From a virus, in the IMG/VR virus record IMGVR_UViG_3300035698_009910, positions 1 to 50,336 of that record: 50,336 bases of DNA, one strand, 5' to 3'. The notes below the pieces were generated by a model. It saw only the letters and a program-made list of their open reading frames with translations. It ran no database searches and was not told the DNA's origin. The position numbers and the translations under genes were made by a program. This document shows positions 3,001 to 43,533 of this stretch, one piece after another (position 1 is the first letter of the stretch; every line of letters starts with the position of its first letter).

Positions 3001-6000
3001 TACTAGTTCTAAAGAAGATACATTAAAACAACTTGATGAGATTAAAAAGAATAAAGACAATATTCAATTAGAAAATAATGATCCCAATGCTGATTTTTAT
3101 GTTAACAAAATTACAGGTCAAAAATACCGTCGTGTAACTAGTACTTTTAAAAATAAACCAAGTAAGGATGCTTTAACACCAGAAGGTGTACTTAAAACAT
3201 CAGCTAAAATTGGTACAGCATTAGATAGAATTACTCGTGACTTTTTTGATGGTAAATTAGAATCACATGATGTTTATAAAACACATGAGTCATATGAAGA
3301 GTATAGTGATTTTATAAAAGAACTTATCAAACTGTCGGTAAATTTTAGTAACAAAGGAGAAACTGTTGTAACTGATGAGATACTTCTTTACAATGATGAA
3401 TTAGGTATAGCAGGTACTGTAGATCTACTTACTGTAGATAATGATGGTAATGTACGTATATATGATCTTAAGGCTAAACGTAGTGGTTTAGCTAATGTAG
3501 ATAAGACATACAAAAATGGTAAAGTAGTACCAAAGGGTACAGACGGTATTTTAACAGGTAGAGAAGAATGGCAACAACAATTGTCTATATATCGTATACT
3601 GTTAAATAATACACATGGTATACTAGCTGTTGATACAGTCATATTACCTATACAAATAACTAAATTTGATAAGAAGAAAACTAAGGAACAAAACAGTGTA
3701 ACTAGAACGTCTAAGTTTATACATGAGCAACCTATTACAATGTTAGATAAGGTTGAAAATCTTAAGTTTGGTATAGGTACTATTAAATTAGCTTTAGATA
3801 CTAACTCAGAAGGTGGTGAAGATACTGGTAAAGATGACGATTATTTAGATGATCTTTCTCCATCAGATGAATCATTTGTAGATCCTGCTTTTTCTAAAGA
3901 GTATTTAGAAGATAAAAAATGGAATAAGAAAAAAGAGTTAGATAAACTTTCTAAAATATTACCTAAAGATATAGCAGTTAAAGTAACAGATGATATAGAA
4001 CAAATATTTGGTGTTGATGCATGGGGTGTTTATTTTAATGCAATGATTTATTTACATTCTGATAATAAACAAGGAGTTGCTTATCACGAAGCTTTTCACG
4101 CTATATATAGAAGTGTGCTTTCTCCAACACAAAGAGAAGCTTTAATGGAAGAAGCTAAAGTTAAATATGCTGCACCATTATATAGTGAATTAAATGATTA
4201 TAAAGAATGGTATGGTGATAATGCATTATCTGTATGGTATGAAGAACAAATGGCTGATGGTTATGCTGAGTACTCTGTTAACCAAGATGCTGAAGCATTA
4301 GGTATTAAAGGTAAGATTAAAGAATTTTTTGAAAAAATTGCAATGTGGTTTGGTCTTATAAAAGATGGTCATAAATCTAAGATTAATGATTTATTTTATA
4401 AAATAGAAACTGGTGGATTTAAGCATCACCAATTATATAGAAAAACATCATTTACTAAACCAGCGTTTGCTTTAAAAAATATGACAGCTACTGATAAAGC
4501 AGAAGCCATTGAACATTTTAAATTTATATTTACTGATATATTAACTTCAATACGTGAAAAACAAGGATACAAAGATAATGTATCTGATGTAGATGTTATA
4601 AATAAAGAAGGTGGTATACATCCATTTATGCAACATGTCTTTACTAAGATGATGCGTAATAGAGTTAGTGCAGCAGAAACTGCTCCTCGTATAGCTGAGG
4701 ATTATAAAAACATAGCACGTAATTGGGTGTCAGGTAAACCAATTAAAGTAAAACCTAGAGTTAAGCTAGAAACTATTAGTGGTGAGTTTGTATTTGATTA
4801 TACACCTGGTCAACTTTACTATGATGCATTAAAGTCTTTAAAAGATTTTGGTATTGTTATAAAAGCTGAGAAAGTAGAAGAAGCTATAGCAGCTAAAAGT
4901 AAAGACTTTGAAAAAGTAGTTTCTAGAGTAGAAGATGAAGAAATAACAAATTATCAATCTTGGGAAATTAGTGCTAATCAAGTTTCTTCTAAGGAAAGAT
5001 TATCTCCTAAAATTAAAAGAAAATTTGCTAACATACCTAAAACAAATTTTGAAGGTGTTCCAAAAACAGATAAATTTGGTTACCCTGTATTTGAAGATTT
5101 TAATGTTGTATATAGATATTTAGAACAAAATATATCTGATATATACAATCCTATAACAATGATGAATAAATTATATTCATTACGTAATAGTAAACCTTAT
5201 ATTAATACTATAATTAATTTAATTGAAGGAGATCAACAATTAAAATCTGAAGTGTATACTTCTATTGTGGCTAAACAATTTAATCATTATTTATACATAA
5301 GACAAGACAAAAATGGAACTAAATTATTTGGTTCTAATAGATTAGGTATTCGTAATGTTATTATAAATGACCTTAAAAATGCATTTGAATATAGTAAATT
5401 AACAAAAGAAGGAAAAGTAGATAAAGTTGTAGCTAAACAATTTCAAGATAAATTTAATTTATTAGCTACTGAATTTAATAAAAGAGAAAATTATGATAAA
5501 ATAAAAGATGAAAATGGTACTTCTACTTTTGTATTCAATGAAAAACTTGTTACAAAAATGTATGATTTATTAAACGAATATTCTATAGATGTTAAATTAG
5601 ATCAATTAAAAGGTTTATCTAAGCTTGGTACAGTTAAGTTTAAAGATTTCTTAGGTTTAACACAAAACACTAAAGGTGTTAAATCGTTAATTGCTTTGTT
5701 AGTAGCTGGTAAAAATCCTTTATCAACTGTTGATTTAGAATCAACAGAAGGCTCTACTTTAGAAAGTATAGCTAAATCGTTAGTACCTGTAAGTCAAAAC
5801 TTATTTGAATCATCATTTATAAATGTAGGTGGTAAGTCTACTTATGCACATAATCCTTCTAACTTTTTACATAAAAAAATATATGAATTTCTTGATCCTA
5901 AAATACGTCAATCTTATTTAGATACTGCTTTTTATAAAAAATCTTTTTTACTTAAAGAATTAGGTAATGACATAGAGGTTGCTGAAAATTTTATGGCTGG

Positions 6001-9000
6001 TATATTAGATGGTTATAGAGCACTAGGTAAAAATAAAGGTGTTGCTTATGATGAAATGAATAAAGAGCAATTAGAAACAACTGTTATAAATGCTTATCAT
6101 AATAATGGTAATAGAAAATTTGCTTATTACAGATTTCCTGTATTATCTGATTCTCCACAATTACCATTAATTAAATTTAAAAAATACAGCTCAGATGAAG
6201 TAATAGACAATATGTATACTACTGTACTTCAGGAAGTAGCTAGTATGGCTGCTATTAAAAATAGTAAAACTGTTTCTAATATTAAGAATGTAAAGGAAAG
6301 AATGAACAAGTTTTATTTAGTACCTTTTATGGATGATTATAAAGGTAAAATTACAGATGTAGCAGAAACTAAAGCTTTTATTAAAGCAGAAATGAAAAAA
6401 GGCTTTGAATTAGAATTAAAAAGATTAGTTAAATTAGGTATTGTTGAAACAAGTTCAATAACTAAACTTAGTGGTGATAAAAAAATTATATATAAAAATA
6501 CAGAAAAAGAGTTATTACCAACTACTGCTGCTAAACAAGGAGATTTAAAACCTTTATTAGCGGAATACTATTACAATAGTAAAATGATGAATACACAGAT
6601 GATATCTTTATTTTCTGGTGATTTAAAGTTTTATAAAAATAGTGCAGACTGGCAAAAACGTAATAAACAAGTATGGTCACCTAAACAATATTTAGATACA
6701 TCAGTTACTAATAAAACTTATGCAACTATATATTTAAAAGATAAATTTAAACCATCAGAAAAAGAATTTACTGATTTTGTAAGTAAAACATTAACGGATA
6801 AAGGTTTTCCTAAAGCTTATATAAATTCTGTAGTTGCTTTATATAACGGTAATAAATCTAATAATGAAACAGATGCTCAAGCATATATTACGTTAGAAAG
6901 ATATAAAGAAATATGGGAAGGTCTTGGTAGATGGACAAATAAACATGAGCAAGCATATAATAAAGCTAAAGTAGGTAAACCATTAAATCAAAATGAGCAT
7001 GGATTATTTAGTATTATTAAACCTTTTCAATTTACACATACTACTGTTGATGGTATAATAGTACCTGTACAAAATAAAAACTCTGAGTTTGTTTTATTAC
7101 CTGAGTTTATTAATATGGATAAAACAGGTAAACTTAAAGAGATACATGATACATTACAAAATATTCAACGTGAAAAAGGTATAACAGCATCTGCACAATT
7201 TGAATCTGCTGTTAAAGTTGGTTTATATGGTCAATCAGATAATGCAGGAGATGCTACTGTTCATGAATTAAGTAATTCAGATTTTGGGCTTCAAGTTGAA
7301 ACACCATCTCATTATTTAGATTTTGATGTAAGGTTTGGTACACAGATACGTAAACTTATGTTAGCTGATACAAATCCAAATGAAATATTTAATGTTAAAA
7401 ATATACCAGAAATTAGTGAAATTTTTGGTAAAGAAGAAGTTAGTTTTGCTGAATTAGCTAATAAGTATCAAGAAATAATAGGTGTTAATTTAAAAGAGGG
7501 TGCTAATGAAGCACAACTTATAACTAAAGATAATACTAGAATATCAGATTACCTTACAGAAGCTGCTGAAGATAGAGATTTAGGTCAAAACTTAGTAGAT
7601 GCTATACAATTAAATTCTGATGGTAATTTTACACTTGATTTATCTCATCCTTTACATTCTAAACGTAATGAGCAATTACTTAATGCTTTATATAAAAATA
7701 AAGTAACTAAGCAAAAAATATCAGGTGGTCAGTTTATTAATGTATCTTCATTAGGTTTTTCAGATGATTTAAAAATTATTACTAAAGGTGATGATTTTTT
7801 ACATATGGAAGCTTATATGCCTTGGTGGTCAAAAGAAAAGTTTGAAGGTATATTAGATGATGATGGGTATGTAGATGTAAATAAGATAACAGATAAGCGT
7901 GTATTAGACGTTTTAATACATCGTATCCCAACAGAGGATAAATATTCTATATTTAAACTTAAGATTAAAGGATTCACTCCTCCTGGTTCTGGTGGAGCTG
8001 TTATATTACCTCGTGAAGCTACTACCATAGCAGGTCTAGATTTTGATGTAGATAAGATGTTTGGTATGATGTTTGCTTTAAAAAATGTAGATGGTCAACC
8101 AACAGTAGTTAATCCCTCTATTGATACAGAGGGAGGTAGAGATAATATGTTACTTTCTATTATGTTAGGCATATTAAGTCATTCTGCAACATCTTCTAGT
8201 ACATTCCAACCTGGTGGATTTGATAACTTAAAAAACACATCACTTAATGTTAGAATGTATAGAGTTGGTTTAGAACCAACTAATTATATAGGTGAAACAT
8301 TAAAAGATACAATTGAAATTAAAGAAGAAGCATTAAATTCTATTGATATGGATTTAACAGAACCTTCTGTACAAACAGAATTGTTTACTAGAAACATGAC
8401 TGGTAAAAATCTTATTGGTATATTTGCAAATCATAACGTTAACCATGCAATGGCACAGTTTACTGATTTAAGTGTAGTAGAAGGATTAGCTCCTATATTT
8501 GATGGTAAAAAAGCAACAGCTTTGAATAGTATTATTGCACAAAATGGTTATAATAATACATCTAGAGCAGGAGCATCTAAACTTGCGGCTGTTGTAGATA
8601 ATGCAAAAGATCCTATTGCTGATTTTCTTAACATTAATACATTTACTGCTGATACAGTAGCTTTATTAGGTAGATTAGGTCATGATCCAGAAACATATTT
8701 ACTATGGACAACTCAACCAGTACTTGTTGAATTAACAGAAGAGATATTTTCTACTGGTGCTGCTTTTGGTGAAGAAGATAATGTACTTAATAGACGTATA
8801 GCTAAAAAGATAAATCAAATAAAAAGTATTCTTAATCAAGATTTTAAACCTTCTTTACAACCTTATACTAAAGAAAGTTTAATTAAAATGCATAAAACTA
8901 ATTTTTTATACCAAAAAGATAAAGATGTATTATCTCAAAAACAGTTAATTGAAAAATACTCTACTTTCTTTTTAGAACAATTAGATGTATTGTACTCATT

Positions 9001-10858
9001 TAAAAATAACAAATCAGTTGCAGACGATTTAGCTAAATTAGTTAGAGGCACTAGACCAGATGCGGTTGGTGCTGGACCAACAATGTCTCAAAATGAAACA
9101 GCTATTCGTAATAAAGAATCATTAGATAGTATTAATAAACTTGTAAATCATGAAGATTTTTATACTGGTGATAATTTATCATTAATAAATGACTTTTATA
9201 AATATGGTATTCAACAAGCTAATGATGACTTATCTAGATTATTTCCTTGGAACAATGCTCAGTTTATGCATATTAAAGATAGAATAGAAGGTAATAAAAT
9301 TAAAGGTAATTTATCAGTAGATGAAATAGAATTTGTTAATTACAGTATTTATTCGTATATTGCAAGTTCTAAAGAATATTTAACAGAATCAAATAAAAAT
9401 ATAGATTTATTGACTAAATTTCATACTAGATTATCAGATTTTAAAAACAATAATCCTAATAATAGATATGTTGAAACATTTTTAAATAGATTTCAAATAG
9501 TACCTTATAATAAAGATAAAGGATTTAAGCAAATTAGATTTTATAACACTGGTATGAGTGCTATTGAAAAACAAAATCTTACTTCTATATGGGAACAAAT
9601 GTTTAATGATAAAAATCCTGAGATTAAAAAAATAGCTCATGATTTAGCTAAATATTCTTTTATGAGTTCTGCTTTTACATTTACACCATACGGTTTTAAT
9701 AATATGCTACCTGTTTCTTATTATACTTCTCTCATGGATGAAAACGGTGAAATGTTTAACGATTGGTTTAGAGATAAAGTTAATAATACAGAATTAGCTA
9801 CAATGGACCCAGAGTTTTATGAAAACTTTTATACCCAGTTTATACAAAATAACTTTACACAACAGAATTTTGTTAAAACTATTAATATATATAAGACTAA
9901 TAAAAATGTAGATTCTCTTATTTTTGGTAAAGGTGTTGGTGTTGTTACAATAGGTAAGAAAAACAAAAAAACTTGGGTAAATAACGATGGTAATATGCCT
10001 AAATTTATTAGACATAAAGGAGAAGTTAAAGATATATTATTTACTTTAACATCTAGTAATGATAAAGGTGAATATATATATAGTCAAGCTAAGACTTTAG
10101 GTATGACTGGTTTACTTTTAGAATATTCTCCAGAACGTTATAGTCTACAATCACTTAATAGTGATAATAAAATAGGTGTAGATTACAATGAACAATCTTG
10201 GTATGAAGCTAACTTAGCTGATGAGGTTTCAGTAGCTGATGTAGTTCAAGATGAAACAACAATTATAAATGACAAATCTAATTTATTAAATAAAAATATT
10301 TCTTATTATACTGGTGATATAAAACCAGATAAAAATACTGTATTTGTATTTGGTAGTAATCCAGAAGGAAGACATGGTAAAGGAGCAGCTAAAATAGCTA
10401 AAGATAGTTTTGGTGCAAAATATGGACAAGGAGAAGGGTTACAAGGAAACGCTTATGCTTTACCTACTAAAGATTTAAGAATTAAAAAAAATAAAGGATT
10501 TAAATCTATATCTCCAGAGCAAATAGTAGAAAACATACAAAAAATGTATGATTCAGCTATTAACAATCCTGGAAAAACATTTAAAGTAGCGTATAGAAAC
10601 ACTACTCAATTAAGTTTAAATGGTTATACTGGATTAGAAATGATAGATTTATTCAATGAAGCTGGAAATATTCCGTCTAATGTAATGTTTAGTGAAGAAT
10701 GGATAAACACAGGTAAATTAACTAAAGAAAATAAACCAAATGAACAATTAGATTTATTTGATGATAACATAACAAAAGAAGATAAAGCTAAGTCTTTATT
10801 ATCTGGGTTAACTGATACTAGTAACGAAGAAGCTAAAAAGAAAAAAGATGAGTGTTAA
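2..10858 (+). CDS. Giant virion RNA polymerase polyprotein-like protein (5' end outside window)
   Basis: This is the largest gene, at least 3618 codons. The first ATG is at 656, but the frame has no stop from position 2 to 656, so the protein starts upstream of the window and 656 should not be taken as its start. Order of parts: a charged Lys/Glu/Asn-rich N-terminal stretch; a repeat-rich linker (about 1300-2890); a PD-(D/E)XK nuclease-like segment (about 3090-3720); an HEAFH zincin-like segment (4084-4098); a long region ending in the RNA polymerase barrel with DFDVD at 8039-8053; and a macro-like domain (about 10308-10800). In crAss-like phages a single-chain RNA polymerase of this type is packaged in the virion and injected to transcribe early genes; that role is inferred here. 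The stop is TAA, and the next gene overlaps it by 11 bases. Assignment as RNA polymerase is good; the other domain calls are moderate. Confidence 0.85.
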   Translation, partial: KKNSNKRITPNDIKKLKTAIKSIETEIANIKKEIVEATENSIKTEPVILSEEESKNKKIEVVKERLNDRYKDKERLKIDELNKLSDELGLESVTIEELAELYYSDDNAQTVINDFFERKRENAKARKASKDETSPNKQTVNAETSDVQPTDPNTNDENGHIIITHDKEFNEDADKPKLKSIKNPGDHKFFDEDHRTGNEVLNDKNYELEGEYVYYELDMQNNYNQSFAHEGQHIIEAVYYKDGNPENKTKENRVILGKVRGNHKLQNTPHLKSLRTMIMRDYKAAGSPEGIFASNYKNKIKQKMGGVIHTINQDSNPINVLDNEGGEKLVFGVAVEEGVGNVTLKVPNAANFGDVYTEIMLDPRYQLSNGNAFLIVFNNKGQAVPIHLNTGKFKDAEQSVKDEVNELIDSLTESNVKEVSNKISNHVYTNITSYNKATGKVTIQTKVYDKDTDSYNNVGKSISLEEYRNKLDNSTRQIDVTKINKGTYNEDISNNGVVTTDVNPITHFHSGGIEVSPLIEEVSSKQSSTETKPNNQSGLDKINEAEQEELSENSNIVLGKAVSNASSEGTFKSQTAEKIREIAVKYLSSISKKIEGYFKGEKIEGINSASDLIMLFGANPILKFLGNNTINSIRTFLENKEKGIETRTIEEVFLNKKTNEEIKAKYQAKRDALNNSTNTESELDKIKTLPFKERIPALIKMGIISSTTTYNLGKRFPIIVNIAGVKVAFYRSSEGTGGKEKGKWTPMFGFGVSKGNSWLIKGDINTLNKNYNSEAIKEYADILNSTLNWNHELDKGTVKNHPFFNVLELAKNEQAFNKELYNVEDLDIVNYKSDVSGYINNKLQEINAKYQAQRDALKSKPSTENTSIETVNKATGKVTIQTKVYDKDTDISSKQSSTETKPNNQSELDKINADEKEALDIDNKLVYETGKDREGKNYKGGWIQHQEETIAKYQAKRDALKSKDTTTENISTNESSESKPLVSKKPAPVTTAATKETLSPTSSKEDTLKQLDEIKKNKDNIQLENNDPNADFYVNKITGQKYRRVTSTFKNKPSKDALTPEGVLKTSAKIGTALDRITRDFFDGKLESHDVYKTHESYEEYSDFIKELIKLSVNFSNKGETVVTDEILLYNDELGIAGTVDLLTVDNDGNVRIYDLKAKRSGLANVDKTYKNGKVVPKGTDGILTGREEWQQQLSIYRILLNNTHGILAVDTVILPIQITKFDKKKTKEQNSVTRTSKFIHEQPITMLDKVENLKFGIGTIKLALDTNSEGGEDTGKDDDYLDDLSPSDESFVDPAFSKEYLEDKKWNKKKELDKLSKILPKDIAVKVTDDIEQIFGVDAWGVYFNAMIYLHSDNKQGVAYHEAFHAIYRSVLSPTQREALMEEAKVKYAAPLYSELNDYKEWYGDNALSVWYEEQMADGYAEYSVNQDAEALGIKGKIKEFFEKIAMWFGLIKDGHKSKINDLFYKIETGGFKHHQLYRKTSFTKPAFALKNMTATDKAEAIEHFKFIFTDILTSIREKQGYKDNVSDVDVINKEGGIHPFMQHVFTKMMRNRVSAAETAPRIAEDYKNIARNWVSGKPIKVKPRVKLETISGEFVFDYTPGQLYYDALKSLKDFGIVIKAEKVEEAIAAKSKDFEKVVSRVEDEEITNYQSWEISANQVSSKERLSPKIKRKFANIPKTNFEGVPKTDKFGYPVFEDFNVVYRYLEQNISDIYNPITMMNKLYSLRNSKPYINTIINLIEGDQQLKSEVYTSIVAKQFNHYLYIRQDKNGTKLFGSNRLGIRNVIINDLKNAFEYSKLTKEGKVDKVVAKQFQDKFNLLATEFNKRENYDKIKDENGTSTFVFNEKLVTKMYDLLNEYSIDVKLDQLKGLSKLGTVKFKDFLGLTQNTKGVKSLIALLVAGKNPLSTVDLESTEGSTLESIAKSLVPVSQNLFESSFINVGGKSTYAHNPSNFLHKKIYEFLDPKIRQSYLDTAFYKKSFLLKELGNDIEVAENFMAGILDGYRALGKNKGVAYDEMNKEQLETTVINAYHNNGNRKFAYYRFPVLSDSPQLPLIKFKKYSSDEVIDNMYTTVLQEVASMAAIKNSKTVSNIKNVKERMNKFYLVPFMDDYKGKITDVAETKAFIKAEMKKGFELELKRLVKLGIVETSSITKLSGDKKIIYKNTEKELLPTTAAKQGDLKPLLAEYYYNSKMMNTQMISLFSGDLKFYKNSADWQKRNKQVWSPKQYLDTSVTNKTYATIYLKDKFKPSEKEFTDFVSKTLTDKGFPKAYINSVVALYNGNKSNNETDAQAYITLERYKEIWEGLGRWTNKHEQAYNKAKVGKPLNQNEHGLFSIIKPFQFTHTTVDGIIVPVQNKNSEFVLLPEFINMDKTGKLKEIHDTLQNIQREKGITASAQFESAVKVGLYGQSDNAGDATVHELSNSDFGLQVETPSHYLDFDVRFGTQIRKLMLADTNPNEIFNVKNIPEISEIFGKEEVSFAELANKYQEIIGVNLKEGANEAQLITKDNTRISDYLTEAAEDRDLGQNLVDAIQLNSDGNFTLDLSHPLHSKRNEQLLNALYKNKVTKQKISGGQFINVSSLGFSDDLKIITKGDDFLHMEAYMPWWSKEKFEGILDDDGYVDVNKITDKRVLDVLIHRIPTEDKYSIFKLKIKGFTPPGSGGAVILPREATTIAGLDFDVDKMFGMMFALKNVDGQPTVVNPSIDTEGGRDNMLLSIMLGILSHSATSSSTFQPGGFDNLKNTSLNVRMYRVGLEPTNYIGETLKDTIEIKEEALNSIDMDLTEPSVQTELFTRNMTGKNLIGIFANHNVNHAMAQFTDLSVVEGLAPIFDGKKATALNSIIAQNGYNNTSRAGASKLAAVVDNAKDPIADFLNINTFTADTVALLGRLGHDPETYLLWTTQPVLVELTEEIFSTGAAFGEEDNVLNRRIAKKINQIKSILNQDFKPSLQPYTKESLIKMHKTNFLYQKDKDVLSQKQLIEKYSTFFLEQLDVLYSFKNNKSVADDLAKLVRGTRPDAVGAGPTMSQNETAIRNKESLDSINKLVNHEDFYTGDNLSLINDFYKYGIQQANDDLSRLFPWNNAQFMHIKDRIEGNKIKGNLSVDEIEFVNYSIYSYIASSKEYLTESNKNIDLLTKFHTRLSDFKNNNPNNRYVETFLNRFQIVPYNKDKGFKQIRFYNTGMSAIEKQNLTSIWEQMFNDKNPEIKKIAHDLAKYSFMSSAFTFTPYGFNNMLPVSYYTSLMDENGEMFNDWFRDKVNNTELATMDPEFYENFYTQFIQNNFTQQNFVKTINIYKTNKNVDSLIFGKGVGVVTIGKKNKKTWVNNDGNMPKFIRHKGEVKDILFTLTSSNDKGEYIYSQAKTLGMTGLLLEYSPERYSLQSLNSDNKIGVDYNEQSWYEANLADEVSVADVVQDETTIINDKSNLLNKNISYYTGDIKPDKNTVFVFGSNPEGRHGKGAAKIAKDSFGAKYGQGEGLQGNAYALPTKDLRIKKNKGFKSISPEQIVENIQKMYDSAINNPGKTFKVAYRNTTQLSLNGYTGLEMIDLFNEAGNIPSNVMFSEEWINTGKLTKENKPNEQLDLFDDNITKEDKAKSLLSGLTDTSNEEAKKKKDEC
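1303..1622 (+). repeat. First copy of a two-part duplicated linker segment
   Basis: Two blocks (1303-1360, 58 bases; 1566-1622, about 57 bases) recur later in the same gene at 2614-2671 and 2673-2729. The first pair is identical over 58 bases; the second differs at one base that I see. They encode a stretch beginning NKATGKVTIQTK and one beginning SSKQSSTETKPNNQS. Between the two blocks this copy has 205 bases that the second copy lacks. Confidence 0.9.
2614..2729 (+). repeat. Second, compacted copy of the duplicated linker segment
   Basis: This repeats 1303-1360 and 1566-1622 with the two blocks joined almost directly. The high nucleotide identity suggests a recent internal duplication followed by deletion, or recombination between related phages. 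A second repeat family, encoding KYQAKRDAL or a close variant, occurs three times nearby (about 1990-2020, 2545-2572 and 2853-2883). Confidence 0.9.
3090..3720 (+). other. PD-(D/E)XK nuclease-like domain within the giant protein
   Basis: The segment starts with a YRRVTS-type strand, has a helix with GTALDR, then GIAGTVDLL (about 3403-3430) followed by RIYDLKAKRSG (about 3455-3487). The pattern GxxD, then DxK after about 15-20 residues, followed by a helix with QLSIYR, is that of Cas4/RecB-like PD-(D/E)XK nucleases. Fusion to the polymerase suggests an ejected enzyme that acts on host or phage DNA, which is inference. Confidence 0.65.
3960..4400 (+). other. Zincin-like metallopeptidase domain within the giant protein
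   Basis: YHEAFHAIYR at 4081-4110 is an HExxH zinc motif. A downstream EEQMADGYAEY helix (about 4236-4270) could supply the third zinc ligand. The layout matches metallopeptidase-like domains seen in large polyvalent phage proteins. It could process the polyprotein or cleave a host target; neither is shown by the sequence. Confidence 0.6.
7300..8110 (+). other. RNA polymerase catalytic double-psi barrel
   Basis: HRIPTEDKYSI (about 7919-7953), then AVILPREATT, then AGLDFDVDKMFG (about 8030-8065) parallels the bacterial beta-prime order RAPTLHR ... NADFDGDQM. The three aspartates of DFDVD at 8039-8053 would hold the catalytic Mg2+. The variant DFDxD rather than DFDGD is known from the crAss-like phage phi14:2 polymerase, which is related to QDE-1 polymerases. 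All three aspartates are kept, so an active enzyme is expected. Confidence 0.85.
10305..10800 (+). other. Macro-like (ADP-ribose-binding-like) C-terminal domain
   Basis: The segment begins with SYYTGDI, then VFVFGSNPEGRHGKGAA and GQGEGLQGNAYALPTKD. The FVFGSN...GRHGxGAA signature with a following AYALPTK is shared by small phage and bacterial proteins with a macro-like fold. Its position as a C-terminal appendage of a virion RNA polymerase suggests a role in countering ADP-ribose-based signalling or modification, but this is inference. Confidence 0.5.
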
Positions 10859-36379: not shown

Positions 36380-36966
36380 AATAATTTTTTTAATGTTTTT
36401 AAATTTTTAGAATCTAAAGCATTTGATATTTTGATAGAAATATCATTATCTACTTTAGTATTAAAAATTGTTTGTAATTTTTTATATTTTATTAATCTTA
36501 ATTTATAAGATTTTAATTTTACTTTTGGTATTATACTATATTTATTATAATCTTTTTTATTACTATAATGAGCTAAAATAAATCTTTCCCACACAGTTAA
36601 CTGTAAATCACTTTGATTTAACCATATCATATTAGTAATAATAGTTTTTCTATTTAAACTAATATAATTAGCTAAAAATGTAGTTAAATAATAACTTAAA
36701 TCATTATGGTCTTTTTTATAAATTAAAATAGATAATCCATCATATTCACAAATAAAACCTAAATCATTTAATGTTTTTACCCATTCTTCAGTTACTTTAC
36801 CTGTATCTCCAGTTATTTCAATAACACTATCATTATCTGATATTTTGACATAATCATGAATAGTTTTATTTAAAAAATCTTTTGTTGTTTTTTCATTATA
36901 ATAAATACATTCTTTTATTATTTTTAATTTTTTATAATCAGATAAAGATATTAATGTTTCAATCAT
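36361..36966 (-). CDS. Hypothetical protein, 201 aa
   Basis: Basic, Ile/Lys/Tyr/Asn-rich protein between the class I amidotransferase and another unknown gene, overlapping both. Contains VIEITGDTGKVTEEWVKTLNDLGFICEYDGLSILIYKK, a beta-alpha-beta-like stretch, and a WERFILAHYS segment. It ends in NALDSKNLKTLKKLLCWIKK. I see no known family; it may belong with the neighbouring short Lys-rich proteins. Confidence 0.6.
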   Translation of the reverse strand: MIETLISLSDYKKLKIIKECIYYNEKTTKDFLNKTIHDYVKISDNDSVIEITGDTGKVTEEWVKTLNDLGFICEYDGLSILIYKKDHNDLSYYLTTFLANYISLNRKTIITNMIWLNQSDLQLTVWERFILAHYSNKKDYNKYSIIPKVKLKSYKLRLIKYKKLQTIFNTKVDNDISIKISNALDSKNLKTLKKLLCWIKK

Positions 36967-37552
36967 CTTTTATTAATTGATAAGCTTTGTCCCATTTTCT
37001 ATTACTTACTAAAAAACTAAATTCTTTTGCATTGTCTAATGATTTAGATAATGTATATGTTCGACAAATAGTATTTTTTTTAATAGTTGTTGAAAAAATA
37101 GTGTTTTTTATTTTTTTAATACAATTTACTTTTATATAATGAATATCATCAAAATGATTTCTAGAAAAATTAAAATAATTTTTTAATTTACCATTATGAA
37201 TATTATAACTATAAGCAAAATATAAACAAATATATGGTTTAATATCTGTTTTTTTTCTTATTTGTCTATATGTATTAATTATATTTCTATGTACATAATA
37301 CAATCTTATTAATTTAAATATCCAATAATAATGTTTTCTATTTAAACAAGTAATTACATTATTATCAATAGTTGCTCCAAAATCTTTAATAAAACTTGTT
37401 ATTATTGTTTTTTCTTTTTTAGGTATACTTCTTAATTGAATAGTGAACGGTGTAGTTGAAAGATTTCCTTTTCTCATAAAATTATCACCACAATAAAAAT
37501 ATTTTTCTAAACTATATTCTTTATTAAGAGCATTTATTATTCTTTTTCCCAT
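36959..37552 (-). CDS. Hypothetical protein with CGDNFMRK motif, 197 aa
   Basis: The first gene after the PolB terminator. Near residue 20 it carries YCGDNFMRKGN. The same octapeptide CGDNFMRK, encoded by an identical 24-base stretch (37471-37494), occurs in the gene at 41650-42402 inside the PolB intron. The rest is basic and aromatic (HYYWIFKLIRLYYVHRNIIN). No known domain recognised. It may be a paralogue of the intron gene; function unknown. Confidence 0.6.
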   Translation of the reverse strand: MGKRIINALNKEYSLEKYFYCGDNFMRKGNLSTTPFTIQLRSIPKKEKTIITSFIKDFGATIDNNVITCLNRKHYYWIFKLIRLYYVHRNIINTYRQIRKKTDIKPYICLYFAYSYNIHNGKLKNYFNFSRNHFDDIHYIKVNCIKKIKNTIFSTTIKKNTICRTYTLSKSLDNAKEFSFLVSNRKWDKAYQLIKDD

Positions 37553-37591: not shown

Positions 37592-38566
37592 TTAAAATAA
37601 ACTTAGTTGTTTGTTTTTAATACTATTAATGATTTTCCAGCATTCTTTAATATAATATTGTTTATTAACAAACTTTAAATAATTTTTAGTTTCATCGAAG
37701 TCATTAATTATTATAACTCCATATCCAGCTTCTATTGCATTTAAACGTCCATCTTCATGGTGTTTATAGAATCCATTACCATTTTTGCATATAATATATC
37801 TATTAGTTTTTTGAAGCTTGTTAACACCCTTTACAGTGTGTTCTTCTGCTGTCCAACCTTTAGTTACACTAAATGCTTTCATGTAGTCCCAAATATCTCC
37901 ATTGTTGATTGTATCTTCAATAGGTATATTTTTTATAAAATAATTAAATATTGCTTTACGTACAATTTTCATTGATTGATCTTTATGCCAATCTCTGTCT
38001 ATTTCAAACGCACCTTTACACTTAGTGTCTCCATTAGTATATTCAGCAATATAATTATTTACATCTCTTATTACCATTGTAGAATACTCAGCGTATTCTA
38101 ATTCTAATTTAGTTAATTTTTCCCATGATTTACATATTTTCATAAGTTTATCATAGTACTTTTTTTCTATTTTAACGGTAATACCATCTGTATTAACTTG
38201 TAACATAGTTAAGTTAGGAATTAAATCCACAACTTTTTCTGATAACATAGTTAATAATAATTGACCATTAATAGTTATATCCATTGTAAATTTAGGATCA
38301 TATACAAAACTGTATTCATCATTTGATTTACCATAGACACCATTTAATGCAATTTTAATACCATAATTTTCAGGTGTACCTTTTGCATAGTTTTGTCGTT
38401 CTTTATAAAGATCTTCATAAACTTTACAAAATGTAAGTCCTAAATGTTTTGGATAAAATTGATTTACAATAGCTAGATTTGGATAATATGATTTAACATC
38501 AATATCTATTATTATTTCTGTTTCGGAGTTTTTGTAAACTCCAGGTTTTATACAACCGTGGATACC
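37592..38566 (-). CDS. DNA polymerase B, 3' exon (polymerase palm and thumb)
   Basis: The reading frame continues upstream of the first ATG (38284) to 38566 and carries family-B motifs: DIDVKSYYPNLAI (motif A, about 38480-38520), KIALNGVYGKS (motif B) and LQVNTDGITVK (motif C, NTDG). The piece therefore begins GIHGCIKPGVYKNSETE, not at the ATG, directly after a TAG. It lacks any exonuclease motif; these lie in the other piece (42417-43415), whose end FKYDFGTG joins naturally to GIHGC. The last residues KNKQLSLF look like a sliding-clamp-binding peptide. It needs intron splicing to yield a complete polymerase. Confidence 0.9.
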   Translation of the reverse strand, partial: GIHGCIKPGVYKNSETEIIIDIDVKSYYPNLAIVNQFYPKHLGLTFCKVYEDLYKERQNYAKGTPENYGIKIALNGVYGKSNDEYSFVYDPKFTMDITINGQLLLTMLSEKVVDLIPNLTMLQVNTDGITVKIEKKYYDKLMKICKSWEKLTKLELEYAEYSTMVIRDVNNYIAEYTNGDTKCKGAFEIDRDWHKDQSMKIVRKAIFNYFIKNIPIEDTINNGDIWDYMKAFSVTKGWTAEEHTVKGVNKLQKTNRYIICKNGNGFYKHHEDGRLNAIEAGYGVIIINDFDETKNYLKFVNKQYYIKECWKIINSIKNKQLSLF

Positions 38567-38572
38567 CTACCA

Positions 38573-39130
38573 CTACTTGTTACCAAGTCCTAATTTTTCA
38601 TCTGTAAAAGTGTATTCTAATAAATATTGTTTATCAGTATTACCATAATGTGCTCTGTTAATATAACAATCTGTTTCTTCAAAACCAGCTTTAATAAAAC
38701 TATCATATGATTTTTTATATCCTTTACCTAATGTAGTAATTAATTTACCAGGATGAAGTGATTTATTAAATAATTCAATTGGTTTAGGATAAAGTTTTGA
38801 GTCTATTTTATGATGTAATATAGAAAGTTTAATATTATCAATTATGTGTAATAATATTTTTAATAAATCATTATCATTATTACAATTGTAATTATATAAA
38901 ATAGAAACACCACACCCAGAAGGCATATCGCTAATATAACATTCAGCATGGTTTAAACTAAATTGACCATATAAAAAATAAGTACCAAATCCTCTATTAG
39001 CATATTTATCTGCTTCTTTAAAAATAGGTATTTTTTTAATTTCTTTTTTTTTAATTATATTAGATATAATTTTGTTATGAAAATTAGCTTTTCTTTTTCT
39101 ATGATATTTAAAATTATTTATTACTTGCAT
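38573..39130 (-). CDS. Intron-borne hypothetical protein, 185 aa
   Basis: Lies between the intron core and the 3' polymerase exon; its TAG stop is only six bases from the predicted 3' splice site and in the same frame as the exon. Sequence landmarks are NRGFGTYFLYGQFSLNHAEC, MPSGCGVSILYNY and a C-terminal GYKKSYDSFIKAGFEE. The last segment recalls the end of small acetyltransferase-like domains, but the match is weak. Function unknown. Confidence 0.55.
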   Translation of the reverse strand: MQVINNFKYHRKRKANFHNKIISNIIKKKEIKKIPIFKEADKYANRGFGTYFLYGQFSLNHAECYISDMPSGCGVSILYNYNCNNDNDLLKILLHIIDNIKLSILHHKIDSKLYPKPIELFNKSLHPGKLITTLGKGYKKSYDSFIKAGFEETDCYINRAHYGNTDKQYLLEYTFTDEKLGLGNK

Positions 39131-39156
39131 ATTTTTTTACAAATTAAAAATTAGTT

Positions 39157-40210
39157 GTAGTCTGGACTATCTCATCAACCTTCATCTTCATCAGAATGTT
39201 TTGGAGTTCCCCATTTCATTCCTATTGTGTGACTAGGTTGCTCGTTAAAGTTAAAACCTACCTTGTATTTCATTGAATTTATCATATATGGTTCTAAAAT
39301 TAAAACTAATTTTTTAGTTTCTTTTACATTAAAAGTAAGAAAATAAGATTGTTTCCTATTTTTTCTTTTTGTAACTCTTAATGTTGGAGAAATATTCCAA
39401 ACTTGTTTAAAATACTTAATTATTATATCGTGTTCTTTTTTATTAAAAGAATTTGTATGTAATGACATATAAGCACTTTTACCACGTTTAGTATATGATC
39501 CATCATCCATAAACCATATTGCTAATGACTCTTTGTTTAAATAATTTAACCATTTTCTTTTAACAGCTTTATTATTTTTAGGATATAATACTAATCTAAG
39601 TTGATTAAATAAATTAGGGTCTTTACAATCTATTGTAAAACTTTCACCATAATTATTTGTAGTATCATATAATCTTGATACATTAAATCCTAATTCAATA
39701 AGTCTTTTTTGTTTATGTATAATGTAATCAGTTTGTTTTTTAGAATGTCTAGTACTTAATAAACTATTGGCTTTTTTTAGCCTAGTTTTAGAAATATAAC
39801 TATCTCCTAATACCATTCCTATGATAAAACTTATTTGATTTTTATCATATTTTCCCATATATTTTTTACTCATATTTTTATTCTTTATAATGCTCTACAA
39901 AGATAAACAAAATATTTGTAATATCCAAATCTCACATTCAGTTTTTTTTAGTCTCTACACCGTTTTGTAAAATCATTTTAATTTCATATAATGCATTTAA
40001 AGCAGTTTGATTACCTTTTTCATAATTATTTGAAATTTCTTTAATTTTATCAATTGACGGCACGGGATTGTCTTTTTCAATTTTTTGTTGTTTCATTTTT
40101 ATTAAATTAAGAGTTTCCCCGTCAGCATATATACTATTATTTTTCACGTATATATACCCCTTACGGATTCCGAGTTATTCAATGTATGTTACCATACAAG
40201 GGGGCAGTAT
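39157..40210 (-). ncRNA. Group I intron catalytic core (P, Q, R, S elements)
   Basis: In the minus direction the order is: a structured P2-like region (about 40150-40208, with a TGTATG-GTAA-CATACA hairpin and CCCCTT/AAGGGG stem), element P GACGGGGAAACTC (40111-40123), element Q AATCCCGTGCCGTC (40056-40069), element R GTGTAGAGACTAAA (39947-39960), the endonuclease gene, and element S GAGATAGTCCAGACTAC (39157-39173). R GACTA pairs with S TAGTC (P7), and P ACGGG pairs with Q CCCGT (P4). The endonuclease therefore sits in the P8 loop, a usual place. Confidence 0.8.
39175..39873 (-). CDS. LAGLIDADG homing endonuclease
   Basis: A 232-aa protein with two LAGLIDADG-type helices, FIIGMVLGDSYISK near residue 17 and LAIWFMDDGSYTK near residue 112, each ending in an acidic catalytic residue. 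It is a single-chain, two-repeat enzyme of the LAGLIDADG_2 kind. It would cut intronless polymerase genes and drive intron spread. It is encoded between the R and S elements of the group I core, and its TGA stop touches the S element. Confidence 0.9.
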   Translation of the reverse strand: MSKKYMGKYDKNQISFIIGMVLGDSYISKTRLKKANSLLSTRHSKKQTDYIIHKQKRLIELGFNVSRLYDTTNNYGESFTIDCKDPNLFNQLRLVLYPKNNKAVKRKWLNYLNKESLAIWFMDDGSYTKRGKSAYMSLHTNSFNKKEHDIIIKYFKQVWNISPTLRVTKRKNRKQSYFLTFNVKETKKLVLILEPYMINSMKYKVGFNFNEQPSHTIGMKWGTPKHSDEDEG

Positions 40211-40734
40211 TATTCTTTAAAGAAATCTTGTACTGAAGTTATCTTATTAACTTCAAAATCTTTAGTTGTTTTAATTAAATTTTTTGAAATAGAAAAATTA
40301 TGATTACTTTCATATTTTATTTCTATCATTTCTTTACTTACAATATCAAAATATCTTTTTAATTTATTTCTATATACTGATTTTTTTGTAAATAAAGGAA
40401 TAAAATAATTTTCTACATTTTCTTTAAACATAGTATTTTTTTCCCACAACATTCTAACTAAAGTACAAACTAATAAATTTTTTTTAGTACACTCATATGC
40501 AATAAATGAATAAGTATCTTTTTCAATATCTACTCTTTTGATATTTAACATTTTAGTAATATACTCTAAATATTTTTCAGTATATTTAATAGTAGGTTTA
40601 CATTTTGTGTTAAATATAGTAATTTTATCATTTTTTTTAGTATTAATTTCTAATGAGCTAAAACAATTAGTTTGTTTTATTTCTATATCATTAACTGCGT
40701 ATTTTACTTTACAACCTTGATAATCTTCTCTCAT
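40210..40734 (-). CDS. Intron-borne hypothetical protein, 174 aa
   Basis: Ends just upstream of the group I intron core; its stop codon is followed within four bases by GCCCCC, a candidate internal guide sequence. The protein is Lys/Asn-rich, with TKCKPTIKYTEKYLEYITKML and VCTLVRMLWEKNTMF. No family recognised. It shares base composition with other short basic genes around PolB. Confidence 0.55.
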   Translation of the reverse strand: MREDYQGCKVKYAVNDIEIKQTNCFSSLEINTKKNDKITIFNTKCKPTIKYTEKYLEYITKMLNIKRVDIEKDTYSFIAYECTKKNLLVCTLVRMLWEKNTMFKENVENYFIPLFTKKSVYRNKLKRYFDIVSKEMIEIKYESNHNFSISKNLIKTTKDFEVNKITSVQDFFKE

Positions 40735-40743
40735 AATTATTTA

Positions 40744-41064
40744 TTATATACCTATCGCCATAGAATAAGCATCTTCTTCTTGTTTACATGAATCACATAT
40801 GACATAACCAGGCATTGCTTCATATACACCACATGTGTTACAACAATCTATATCCATAGTCATTGAATTATGAACACGAACATTATTTGTTTTTTTAACA
40901 TTAGTATAACTAGACTGACTGTTATACATTGTAACACGCATAACAGTCAGTTTTTTTTCTAGAAAACCTATTTTGTGGGAATATTTTACTGGTTTAGTTT
41001 TAAATTTTGTAACAAATGATTCAAGAATGTTTATTTCTTTTCTTAATTTGTCTTTAATTTTCAA
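40744..41064 (-). CDS. Intron-borne zinc-ribbon protein, 106 aa
   Basis: The C-terminal part reads CCNTCGVYEAMPGYVICDSCKQEE, two CxxC pairs 15 residues apart, a compact zinc ribbon. The N-terminal half is a basic helix (RKEINILESFVTKFK). A 12-base perfect hairpin with a T-run, oriented for the plus strand, lies inside the gene at 40914-40958. It overlaps the upstream gene by four bases. DNA or RNA binding is a guess from the zinc ribbon. Confidence 0.6.
   Translation of the reverse strand: MKIKDKLRKEINILESFVTKFKTKPVKYSHKIGFLEKKLTVMRVTMYNSQSSYTNVKKTNNVRVHNSMTMDIDCCNTCGVYEAMPGYVICDSCKQEEDAYSMAIGI
40914..40958 (+). terminator. Plus-strand terminator-like hairpin inside a minus-strand gene
   Basis: ACTGACTGTTAT (40914-40925) and ATAACAGTCAGT (40940-40951) pair perfectly around a 14-base loop and are followed on the plus strand by eight T's. 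This is a textbook intrinsic terminator for antisense transcription. No plus-strand gene ends here. Confidence 0.6.
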
Positions 41065-41648
41065 TTACAATCAATTACCCACAAAGTAATATCTAATCCA
41101 GAACTAGGATTATTTCTACTTAATATTACATCTGTAAAATTACTCATCGTTGAAGCAATAAATGGATAATTATCATTATTTTCTGAATTTGTGCTAATTA
41201 ATCTATAAGCTGAAGGAAATTCAATATTAGCAGAACTTAAAACAAGACGTATAATTTCATTAGCTATTACTTGACGCATATCACCTCTATCTGGTACATT
41301 TTCTACAATATTTTCAAACAAAACATTAATGTTTGAAATTTGTTGAATACCACAAGATATTTCAGTACTTTCTTCAGCAAGGTTGTCATCAAAAGAAATC
41401 TCTTCTCCATCAATAGTCATTAAAATTACTCCTTCTTCATTCATACCAAAAGATAAACTTTCCAATACATCAGCCGTTGTACTTTCAACTATTTTTGGTA
41501 CAGGTTCTTCAAACAAACTAGTACCATAAGATTGTGTTTTACCATTATCATTAATAATAGTATTTCTATTATCTATGGATTTTAATATTTCATACTCTTT
41601 ATTTTTTGTTAAAGAATATGTTTTTGGATTTATACAAATAACTTTCAT
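41061..41648 (-). CDS. Intron-borne hypothetical protein with SH3-like N-terminus, 195 aa
   Basis: The N-terminus KVICINPKTYSLTKNKEYEILKS is the start of a small SH3-like barrel common in phage proteins. The remainder is acidic and mixed (GEEISFDDNLAEESTEISCG) and ends GLDITLWVIDCN. The function is unknown. Two bases separate it from the upstream gene. Confidence 0.6.
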   Translation of the reverse strand: MKVICINPKTYSLTKNKEYEILKSIDNRNTIINDNGKTQSYGTSLFEEPVPKIVESTTADVLESLSFGMNEEGVILMTIDGEEISFDDNLAEESTEISCGIQQISNINVLFENIVENVPDRGDMRQVIANEIIRLVLSSANIEFPSAYRLISTNSENNDNYPFIASTMSNFTDVILSRNNPSSGLDITLWVIDCN

Positions 41649-41649
41649 A

Positions 41650-42402
41650 TTATTTTTTTAATTTTATACGTTTAGTAATAAGTCTTTTTTTATTAGGATC
41701 AACAATGTGAGATGCTTTTACAAAATAATTTTCATTTAAAACTTTTTTAAATAAAATACTTTTTTTATCATTTAAATAATATACTAATTTATTATTATTA
41801 TCAACTTCTTCACTTGTTTTAGGATGAATAGGTGTAATAAACATATGTATATTAGGAGAAAATGATCTTTTATCATCTGTTTGTTTTAAACTTATATAAG
41901 ATTCATAACCATTACCAATACTTCTACGTTTATCTTTAAATTCTTTTTCTGTTATATTAAAAAATAATATTCTTCTTTTTTTATTAGTAGATTCTTCAAA
42001 ATCAGATTCTAAAAATCCACCACCAAAAGTATATTTTCTATATACTTTTTTATACATTATTAAAAATGTACAATATAATAAAGACCAAGTTTTTTTATTT
42101 TCTTTTAATTCATAAATTTTATCTACAGTTGGGGTATCATCCCAAATATCTCTAAAAAATCTAAAAAAAGAAATATAAAAACCTTTACTTTTGAAATCAA
42201 TTTTAGTTATATTATTGTTAACAATATTAACTTTTCCTTCAAATAATTCTTCAGTTATTTTTATTAAATTTGAAGTTAATGTTGTTGGGATAGTAATAAA
42301 AAATATTTTTGTTTCACTTTTTACATATTTTCTCATAAAATTATCACCACAATTAGTTTTAATTAAATCAAATTCATTATTTACATCATTTTTTATAATC
42401 AT
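41650..42402 (-). CDS. Intron-borne hypothetical protein with CGDNFMRK motif, 250 aa
   Basis: The ATG overlaps the TGA that closes the 5' polymerase exon frame (ATGA), so it could be translated by coupling from unspliced RNA. NCGDNFMRKYV near residue 17 is shared with the gene at 36959-37552, including a 24-base identical run (42330-42353). The rest is basic with SKGFYISFFRFFRDIWDD and HMFITPIHPKTSEEV. No family recognised. Confidence 0.6.
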   Translation of the reverse strand: MIIKNDVNNEFDLIKTNCGDNFMRKYVKSETKIFFITIPTTLTSNLIKITEELFEGKVNIVNNNITKIDFKSKGFYISFFRFFRDIWDDTPTVDKIYELKENKKTWSLLYCTFLIMYKKVYRKYTFGGGFLESDFEESTNKKRRILFFNITEKEFKDKRRSIGNGYESYISLKQTDDKRSFSPNIHMFITPIHPKTSEEVDNNNKLVYYLNDKKSILFKKVLNENYFVKASHIVDPNKKRLITKRIKLKK

Positions 42403-43415
42403 ATTATATTAAGTTTACCCGTTCCAAAGTCGTATTTAAAACCTTTGTAAATTACACTATCTTTAATAGCATTTTTTGTTTCAGAAATAATTGTATTTTT
42501 TAGTTTATTTAATAGAGTAGTAAACTCTACATTTTTATATTTAACATAAGGAAGAATACAATTAGCAAAATTAATATTATCTCTACGTGTTCTTAATTTC
42601 TTAAGATCATATAAATTCATATTTAATTCTTTTGCCATTGATGAAGCAAATATATCTTCTCCCATACCAGCATCTGGCTTATTAATAACATTTATATTAT
42701 ATACTTTACCTATATTTTTACGTAAATCAATTATTTTTTTTGATTTTAAATAAAATTCATAAGTTGAGTCTACATCATTTTTGTTATATAATAGGATATC
42801 TTCTATTTGTTCTTCTTTAATAAAAGTTGTATAATGTAATGGGAGATCTTGAACCTTTTTCCATTTCATTGCTACTTGTAATTTTTTTAAAGATGTTATT
42901 CTTGCTTTGTTATTAAAATGCCAAATTCTAAATAAGTCAACTTGCTTTATTAGAACATATTTGTTTCTAATAGCTGGAAATAATTCACTTATTATTCTTT
43001 GTGATTCTTTGTACAGTTCCTCAACTGAACAATTTTTGTTTGTTAATAAAAAATGTAATAATGGATAATCATAATTAATATTATTAAATCCTATTAAAAC
43101 ATTACATGATTCTAAAAATTTGATATATTCTTTTACATCATTTCTAGCTTTATGTATAACAAACGTTTTATATTCACCTGTATGTATGTTATAAAACATA
43201 CCAGAGTGAAAATTAGGGAATTGTTCTAAATCATATACCCATATACTTTTAAAATTCTGCTTCTTCTCCAAAATCAACAGGTGCTTCTTGTTCTTCAGGA
43301 AATGCTCCTCCGACTTCAAAGATGTTTTCTCTTTCAAAAAGTCTATGTTTTTTTGCATCTTTTTCTCTTGATGCATTTGTATATATGTTATAGATTGATT
43401 CAAACACACACCCAT
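42399..43415 (-). CDS. DNA polymerase B, 5' exon (3'-5' exonuclease domain)
   Basis: Family-B proofreading motifs are present: VYDLEQFPNFHSG (Exo I, D and E), IGFNNINYDYPLL (Exo II) and YNKNDVDSTY (Exo III). The true exon probably ends at 42417 (FKYDFGTG); the last codons KLNII and TGA belong to the intron. The start is unclear. The 5' part of the frame to 43415 overlaps another gene, and its residues before IWVYDLE look like out-of-frame translation. A TTG at 43271 or the ATG at 43358 are alternatives. No polymerase motif A, B or C is here; they are in 37592-38566. Confidence 0.85.
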   Translation of the reverse strand: MGVCLNQSITYIQMHQEKKMQKNIDFLKEKTSLKSEEHFLKNKKHLLILEKKQNFKSIWVYDLEQFPNFHSGMFYNIHTGEYKTFVIHKARNDVKEYIKFLESCNVLIGFNNINYDYPLLHFLLTNKNCSVEELYKESQRIISELFPAIRNKYVLIKQVDLFRIWHFNNKARITSLKKLQVAMKWKKVQDLPLHYTTFIKEEQIEDILLYNKNDVDSTYEFYLKSKKIIDLRKNIGKVYNINVINKPDAGMGEDIFASSMAKELNMNLYDLKKLRTRRDNINFANCILPYVKYKNVEFTTLLNKLKNTIISETKNAIKDSVIYKGFKYDFGTGKLNII

Positions 43416-43533
43416 TAAAGCGGTGTTTATTAGTTAAATAAGAAATAACATCTTCAGATTTCTCTTTATGTTTTTTTTCTTTATCTAAAAAATGTTTTTG
43501 AATATGTTGTAAAGCTTTTATTTCTTCTTCCAT
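43249..43533 (-). CDS. Small charged hypothetical protein, 94 aa
   Basis: First gene after the tRNA-like sequence, immediately upstream of the polymerase. Highly charged: a Lys/Glu/His helix at the N-terminus and an acidic tail (FPEEQEAPVDFGEEAEF). It overlaps the extended PolB frame by up to 167 bases, or about 23 bases if PolB starts at TTG 43271. No family recognised; the acidic tail suggests a protein-binding role in the replisome. Confidence 0.6.
   Translation of the reverse strand: MEEEIKALQHIQKHFLDKEKKHKEKSEDVISYLTNKHRFNGCVFESIYNIYTNASREKDAKKHRLFERENIFEVGGAFPEEQEAPVDFGEEAEF

Follow-up and report, generated by a model that had tools for sequence, protein, structure and literature searches.

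A gene-carrying insert in the PolB gene of a probable crAss-like phage resembles a td-like group I intron of a cargo-carrying phage family

The virus record IMGVR_UViG_3300035698_009910 (50,336 bases, analysed as a whole and called the window below) contains a gene for DNA polymerase B (PolB) in two halves, which are separated by an insert of 3,850 nucleotides (nt) with several open reading frames (ORFs). How could a polymerase be produced from such a gene, and what are the genes between its halves? We consider it very probable that the PolB gene of a crAss-like phage is interrupted here by a td-like self-splicing group I intron, which is also a vehicle for accessory genes and belongs to a cargo-carrying family of phage introns. 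The phage is assigned by a 1,597-amino-acid (aa) product of the window: its matches are RNA-polymerase subunits from crAss-like phages, at 22-23% identity with a best E of 2e-43, and point to such a phage as the probable source; further replication genes are present elsewhere in the window. A preliminary description of this DNA had already proposed a group I intron with the junction given below, P, Q, R and S elements and cargo placed after the 5' splice site and ahead of the core, and this reading is supported here. What goes beyond it is the cargo as a family trait, an ORF threaded through the core, and an endonuclease gene between R and P3' which shares its 3' end with strands of the core.

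The two halves of PolB and their junction

The 3'-5' exonuclease half of PolB (5' exon, 42417..43415) matches positions 14-332 of the profile phrog_1252 (E 6.9e-58), and the polymerase half (3' exon, 37592..38566, beginning with GGTATC) matches positions 333-654 of the same profile (E 1.5e-100); the coordinates of both halves are those of the preliminary description. The PolB gene and all intron features described below lie on the minus strand. The true start codon of the 5' exon is uncertain, with an overlapping ORF (43249-43533) that stops just ahead of the conserved part. The predicted 5' splice site follows ...ACGGGT, between positions 42417 and 42416, and when ACGGGT is joined to GGTATC the product reads ...KGFKYDFGTG-GIHGCIKPG, as in intron-free relatives, with the predicted exon junction ...GGAACGGGT-GGTATCCACGG. 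The join FKYDFGTG-GIHGCIKPG had been proposed to restore the polymerase, which agrees with the contiguous profile halves. The comparison with intronless PolB genes is also consistent with it: over the 30 residues displayed, all 47 intron-free loci (a count that excludes four records of the L001/L002 pair) read through the junction without a stop, and the tblastn segments are gapless in 34 of them. Compared with the phage L001, which keeps the same arrangement, the two exons show similar purifying selection, with nonsynonymous and synonymous divergence of dN 0.11 and dS 0.77 in one exon and dN 0.11 and dS 0.92 in the other. Since dN is equally low in both, both halves appear to be in use.

The halves could also be separate exonuclease and polymerase proteins with an ordinary operon between them. 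The unspliced 5' exon ORF runs five codons into the insert, where its stop overlaps the start of the next ORF (ATGA), and thus an exonuclease-only protein can be made. The polymerase half, however, has no usable start, because a TAG stands immediately ahead of it and the first ATG (38284) is past motifs A and B. Besides, relatives are uninterrupted at precisely this junction and the intervening RNA core is conserved, and we regard two separate proteins as extremely improbable. Two further classes were rejected. An intein does not agree with the in-frame stops and the lack of a protein-splicing domain, and for an IStron no transposase (IS605-type) was seen among the Pfam and PHROGs matches of the insert ORFs. 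A weak FCH match on the polymerase half was set aside as doubtful. In four PolB relatives (L046, L049, L050 and L052), gaps of about 0.4-1.1 kb occur at other positions of the polymerase half, which are probably further introns or inteins.

Structure of the intron core and pairing of the splice sites

The insert length of 3.85 kb in the preliminary description stands, while its count of six ORFs becomes seven here: four in the P1 loop, a 52-codon ORF in the core, a LAGLIDADG gene and one ORF near the 3' end. The internal guide (40202..40210) consists of ATACT, the P10 partner of the 3' exon GGTAT, followed by GCCC, the P1 partner of the exon GGGU. It is followed by the P2 region (40157..40201), with the hairpin GTATG-GTAA-CATAC (40184-40197) and CCTT/AAGG. 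The next segment (40111..40128) holds the P3 5' strand ATGCT (40124-40128), the P4 5' strand ACGGG (40118-40122) and the start of P5, with the P element at about 40111-40122. The Q element (40055..40072) contributes the P4 3' strand CCCGT and the P6 5' strand GCCGT, and the R element (39949..39964) the P6 3' strand ACGGT and the P7 5' strand GACTA. Far downstream (39164..39243) are found the P3 3' strand AGCA (39239-39242), P8 (CAACCT 39235-39240 with AGGTTG 39176-39181) and the S element (about 39164-39181) with the P7 3' strand TAGTC (39165-39169). Thus P, Q, R and S are all present, as first reported, and lie within about 39164-40122. The intron ends (38567..38588) with the hairpin ACTTG-GTAA-CAAGT (38575-38588) and the terminal G at 38567; counterparts of this stem are CTTAG/CTAAG in L001 and CTATG/CATAG in L112.

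The helices P3, P4, P6, P7 and P8 occur in order. In the window every position of P4, P6, P7 and P8 pairs; P3 is short and was judged by eye, and the P3-P7 pseudoknot is beyond the folding program. The group I boundary rules noted at the outset hold as well: in P1 (GGGU/GCCC) the U at the 5' splice site pairs with a G of the guide, and the terminal base is G38567. The guide position was assigned by homology to introns with a short P1 (L112 and introns in DnaB genes). The P10 pairing has 5 base pairs (bp) with the window's own 3' exon and 1 bp with DnaB exons; across 12 introns, cognate P10 has 3-6 bp, which falls to 1-2 bp when guides and exons of PolB and DnaB are swapped. In the proposed reaction, one guide, AUACU-GCCC, would align the end of the 5' exon (GGGU) with the start of the 3' exon (GGUAU), and the two would then be joined to give PolB.

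For comparison, we collected a family of 33 loci with both Q and R, window and L001 included, after removal of duplicates and of two matches without Q. Both P7 strands were found in 31 loci, 29 of which are fully paired with three pair types (GACTA/TAGTC in 17, GACTG/CAGTC in 10 and GGCCA/TGGTC in 2), while two contain one mismatch. Altogether 153 of 155 P7 positions pair, which was reached by none of 5000 shuffles, and in P8 the pairs are 159 of 162 (none of 2000 shuffles). Paired P7 changes are found between loci with homologous loops (window/L117, L104/L105, L107/L122, L102/L114 and L124/L131), and likewise between the window and L001. In the core of L113, located through the protein profile of the core ORF and read by eye, GGCGC/GCGCT replaces GCCGT/ACGGT in P6 and still pairs, and P7 likewise pairs with changed bases. 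The core DNA is 89-100% identical to that of L001 in the matched pieces, whereas the cargo proteins share merely 34-41% identity. When the compact core of L060 was folded de novo and uncut, P4-P8 were obtained (z -3.98; none of 200 shuffles equally stable).

Several observations weigh against the assignment. The window core with shortened loops folds to P4-P8, but 7 of 200 shuffles are equally or more stable, so it is only moderately better than chance. P7 has its mismatches in L122 and L133, and 24 of 27 loci have P8 paired throughout. P4 is invariant in the 29 loci with both strands found, and in P6 just one strand varies across the 33 loci, thus these two helices give no covariation support there. 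P1 has only 4 bp and competes with P2 over one run of C. Finally, Rfam Intron_gpI, the search proposed at the outset, gave no match in the window, L001 or three tested family loci, at gathering and permissive thresholds for window and L001; the same model finds one ordinary td-like intron (L058) and misses two others (L056 and L062).

The missing Rfam match, together with the long inserted stretches that could impair folding, one in P1 and one separating R from P3', would also suit a decayed intron which has lost splicing and left PolB inactive. We judge such decay very unlikely, because P4, P6, P7 and P8 of the window remain fully paired, both exons are under strong constraint, and the arrangement or the site is kept in two further phages (L001 and L112). 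Taken together, the insert is very probably a td-like group I intron, probably of subgroup IA2, and on the grounds of structure, covariation and exon conservation it is predicted to splice itself out and restore PolB.

Location of cargo genes in the P1 loop

The guide lies 2,211 nt from the 5' splice site in the window (1,655 nt in L001). This interval ahead of the core holds the four non-endonuclease ORFs already noticed there. The first (41650..42402, 250 aa) begins in the ATGA overlap with the unspliced 5' exon ORF described above. The second (41061..41648, 195 aa) is represented by homologues in 7 more introns of the family, some of them in different loops. The third (40744..41064) has 106 aa from a TTG or 65 aa from an ATG, contains a Cys motif and has a 95-aa positional counterpart in L001, and the fourth (40210..40734, 174 aa) has homologues in the P5 loop of L103, L108, L122, L125 and L130, that of L103 being fused to the core ORF. 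One more cargo ORF (38573..39130, 185 aa) lies between S and the 3' splice site, with a homologue in L001 and a related ORF in L104.

Are these four genes part of the intron, or did a second insertion occur? Both had been proposed. In L112, whose PolB is 59-64% identical, the window's PolB site holds the same intron with a length of 2,010 nt, a P1 loop of 10 nt and its first cargo downstream of the guide. Its 5' end reads ACGGGT/AAACTAATCT/GCCCC, compared with ACGGGT/AAACTT...(four ORFs)...AATACT/GCCCC in the window. The ten family introns in DnaB genes with both ends known likewise have the exon GGT, then 7-9 nt, then GCCCC. These short P1 relatives, together with the guide position and the P10 pairing, place the four ORFs in the P1 loop. 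The comparison thus favours the first alternative, with the cargo looped out of P1 while relatives of the intron keep P1 short.

The same short loops in L112 (10 nt) and the DnaB introns (7-9 nt) would also be expected if a separate mobile block, functionally unlinked to the intron, had been inserted in the P1 loop of an ordinary intron. However, genes of the 41061 type and the 40210 type are found inside other family introns, partly in other loops, and therefore seem to move together with this family of introns. The Pfam and PHROGs matches include no transposase, and no systematic search was made for terminal sequences or repeats that would mark a separate element. A second group I core was not found in the P1 loop either: the window contains a single td-like core pattern and the loop has no Rfam match, though Rfam also misses the known core. 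We consider nested elements unlikely and prefer an intron that carries these genes in P1 as its own cargo. Such P1 cargo would be transcribed ahead of the core, and so before splicing is possible, which may delay splicing; the cargo could be translated from the precursor or from the excised intron RNA.

The third P1-loop ORF ends with ...GGT-AT(A/T)-TAA in both the window (40744-41064) and L001 (4607-4894). Speculatively, alternative splicing at a 5' site after this GGT would fuse the Cys-rich protein in frame with the polymerase half of PolB.

Cargo genes across the intron family

Family introns with both ends known range from 1,157 nt, in the compact intron of L116, to 3,850 nt. Genes of the 41061 type occupy P1 in the window and L001; in L112 the gene follows the guide, and in L115, L117, L123, L134 and phi14:2 it follows S. 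By sequence comparison, the carriage of non-endonuclease genes is a trait of the family, found in related forms at different places of the intron and at different replication-gene sites. In the comparison with L001, dN of the cargo proteins is 0.55-0.68, which is five to six times the PolB value, with dS 0.69-1.30; the cargo is therefore fast-evolving. For the tested cargo no function was obtained from PADLOC, Pfam or PHROGs. The model of the 41061 ORF is good (pLDDT 85.5) and its best match is the phi14:2 homologue; the PDB matches are weak, SH3-like and GNAT-like, and the best E of the GNAT-like Foldseek matches is 3.2e-3. Matches of an L106 ORF to Chitin_synth_1 and phrog_24882 were too weak and were set aside as doubtful. 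Just 3' of PolB and outside the intron, an ORF at 36959-37552 is a distant paralogue of the first cargo ORF (41650-42402), hence cargo-type genes also live outside the intron.

A cultured member of the family was found in the Cellulophaga phage phi14:2 (Crassvirales; NC_021806), where positions 4516-8241 hold an apparent cargo intron in DnaB. Here g024 ends with TANSKVG and an intron-coded tail and is followed by g025-g028, with g027 as the core ORF, and then by g029, which is annotated as DnaB and lacks the Walker A lysine. Joining GTGGGT to AAATCA gives ...ANSKVG-KSQITDQLF, and the predicted DnaB junction links the end of g024 (...ANSKVG) to AAATCACAA ahead of g029. In the record the DnaB intron is unannotated and PolB is annotated as a join of two pieces. 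It thus appears that g024 is the first DnaB exon and that the stretch from g024 to g029 contains a cargo intron of the window's family.

An open reading frame through the ribozyme core

The core ORF of the window (39938..40096, 52 aa, MKQQKIEKDNPVPSID...LQNGVETKKN) reads through the P4 3' strand, P6 and the P7 5' strand. In the frame GAC AAT CCC GTG, the core is translated as DNPVPS...NGVET, and in the window the ORF ends after NGVETKKN. Q and R share one frame in all 33 loci, with no intervening stop in 32; L125 contains a single stop, and the frame reopens beyond it. The P6 loops (9-180 nt, 19 clusters) are all multiples of three, and the remaining two frames are open in none of 72 cases. 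As a control, 38 ordinary td-like introns, scanned with an ad hoc R pattern, split 9/11/18 over the frame classes; short loops are common among them, which leaves the GAC frame open in 19 of the 38. The stop of the core ORF is a TAG directly ahead of S in 14 of the 22 loci where S was located by pattern, and the proportion of nonsynonymous differences is below the synonymous one (pN < pS) in five of six P6-loop pairs, which were picked by protein identity. The sixth pair, L116/L121, shows no excess of silent changes.

Could the frame be a by-product, in which loops made of coding modules happen to keep it and no protein is made? The core-ORF proteins have no match in Pfam or PHROGs, their structure model is poor (65.7, low confidence), and L125 has its stop. 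The one frame shared by 33 of 33 loci over 19 loop clusters, the closed alternative frames, the TAG before S, the pN < pS pairs and the absence of a frame preference in the control introns all argue otherwise, and we find a mere by-product rather unlikely. We lean, with moderate confidence, to a core that is both ribozyme and gene, in which an ORF runs through P4, P6 and P7, loops serve as exchangeable slots for fast-evolving accessory genes, the introns are mobile gene islands within replication genes, splicing and translation compete, and the PolB version has moved cargo into P1. Under such dual coding the ORF would often reach the edge of S, and the paired bases would also choose amino acids: the A-U or G-C pair in P7 would give Asn or Asp after GVET, and P8 would change Gln, Glu, Lys or Gly. 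A ribosome translating this ORF would disrupt the fold of the ribozyme, so that splicing and core-ORF expression would compete on one molecule. L113 contains two core ORFs with ribozyme cores on one contig (1232-1444 and 2703-3071), the first of which has diverged core letters with P6 pairing kept.

Homing endonuclease and mobility

Between R and P3' lies an ORF for a LAGLIDADG_2 homing endonuclease (39175..39873; E 8.6e-33, profile positions 2-168 of 168); an endonuclease in L103 shares 64% identity with it. At its 3' end (NEQPSH...DEDEG) the ORF runs into the P3 3' strand, P8 and the start of S, and by eye this C-terminus resembles the ORF tail of L108. Endonuclease ORFs overlapping the group I core are already described in the available portion of a review (PMC3984707). 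As in a homing intron, a complete endonuclease domain is contained inside, and 47 relatives are intron-free at the same site. The endonuclease probably spreads the intron to intron-free polB alleles, in which case intron and cargo would move as one unit.

Comparison with known introns

T4 td and similar phage group I introns belong to subgroup IA2. Such td-like introns share with the window the core ACGGGGAAA...GACAATCCCGTGC, a guide just before the P2 hairpin and P7 of the GACTA/TAGTC type. They differ in P1, which is small in those judged by eye, whereas the P1 loop of the window is 2.2 kb. The P6 start CCGTCA, the ORF through the core and the several non-endonuclease genes of the window are also unlike them.

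Group I introns of Bastillevirinae phages, according to the part of PMC11878797 at hand, occur in DNA polymerase genes, encode homing endonucleases and have been shown to splice, with a mean length of 802 +/- 342 bases and mostly one internal coding sequence or none. The window is similar in its polymerase-gene intron with homing endonuclease, while splicing is demonstrated there and predicted from sequence here. In crAss-like phages, PolB is among the interrupted genes, and introns were detected primarily via endonuclease domains (PMC7886860); the accessible text of that paper mentions neither multi-gene cargo nor a core-crossing ORF, both of which are found in the window. The giant mitochondrial group I intron ND5-717 of corals also holds many unrelated genes in a peripheral segment (PMC6545197, in excerpt). 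IStrons, in the accessible portion of PMC3984707, combine a group I intron with a second genetic module, but the window has no transposase match, and the same portion treats the ORFs of bacterial and phage group I introns as homing endonucleases. Among the open-licence papers searched, no intron family was found whose members all maintain a non-endonuclease ORF in frame across the core. The kind of element is thus known, a phage group I intron, and what would be new is the wider cargo family and the core-threaded ORF.

If this is true, a family in which several other genes are common to introns of different replication genes would make these introns vehicles for accessory genes, and would account for some broken annotations of phage polymerases and helicases. 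A catalytic RNA core that doubles as an ORF would also make the conflict between ribosome and ribozyme directly testable, with phi14:2 and its host Cellulophaga baltica #14 as a cultured system.

Collection of the intron family

The pattern searches collected 47 viral stretches with a td-like P/Q core and 29 with the window's Q variant, and a separate R-element scan gave 38. Before counting we dropped L128 and L129 (R without Q, apparently unrelated), L120, L126, L132 and L136 (duplicates), and, because they repeat L001 or the window, L002-L006 and L009. Kept though alike were L130 and L135 (one shared loop) and L060 and L091 (similar); L131 and L134 from outside the Q-pattern collection were added later to the 33, and L118 and L127, both phi14:2, were counted once. 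Host genes other than PolB and DnaB (helicase motifs, others) were assigned by reading flanking ORFs. The PolB scan of the genome collection found no relative, and 13 exact Q matches in that collection were taken as chance, because none had R within 500 nt. The P2 pattern of the window matched only the L001/L002 contigs, and tblastn of two family proteins against phages gave no matches. In L060, the helicase gene ahead of the intron (9170-10161) seems to be frame-shifted between two overlapping ORFs, and L116 contains an Rfam tmRNA match at 9765-10142 (58.2 bits).

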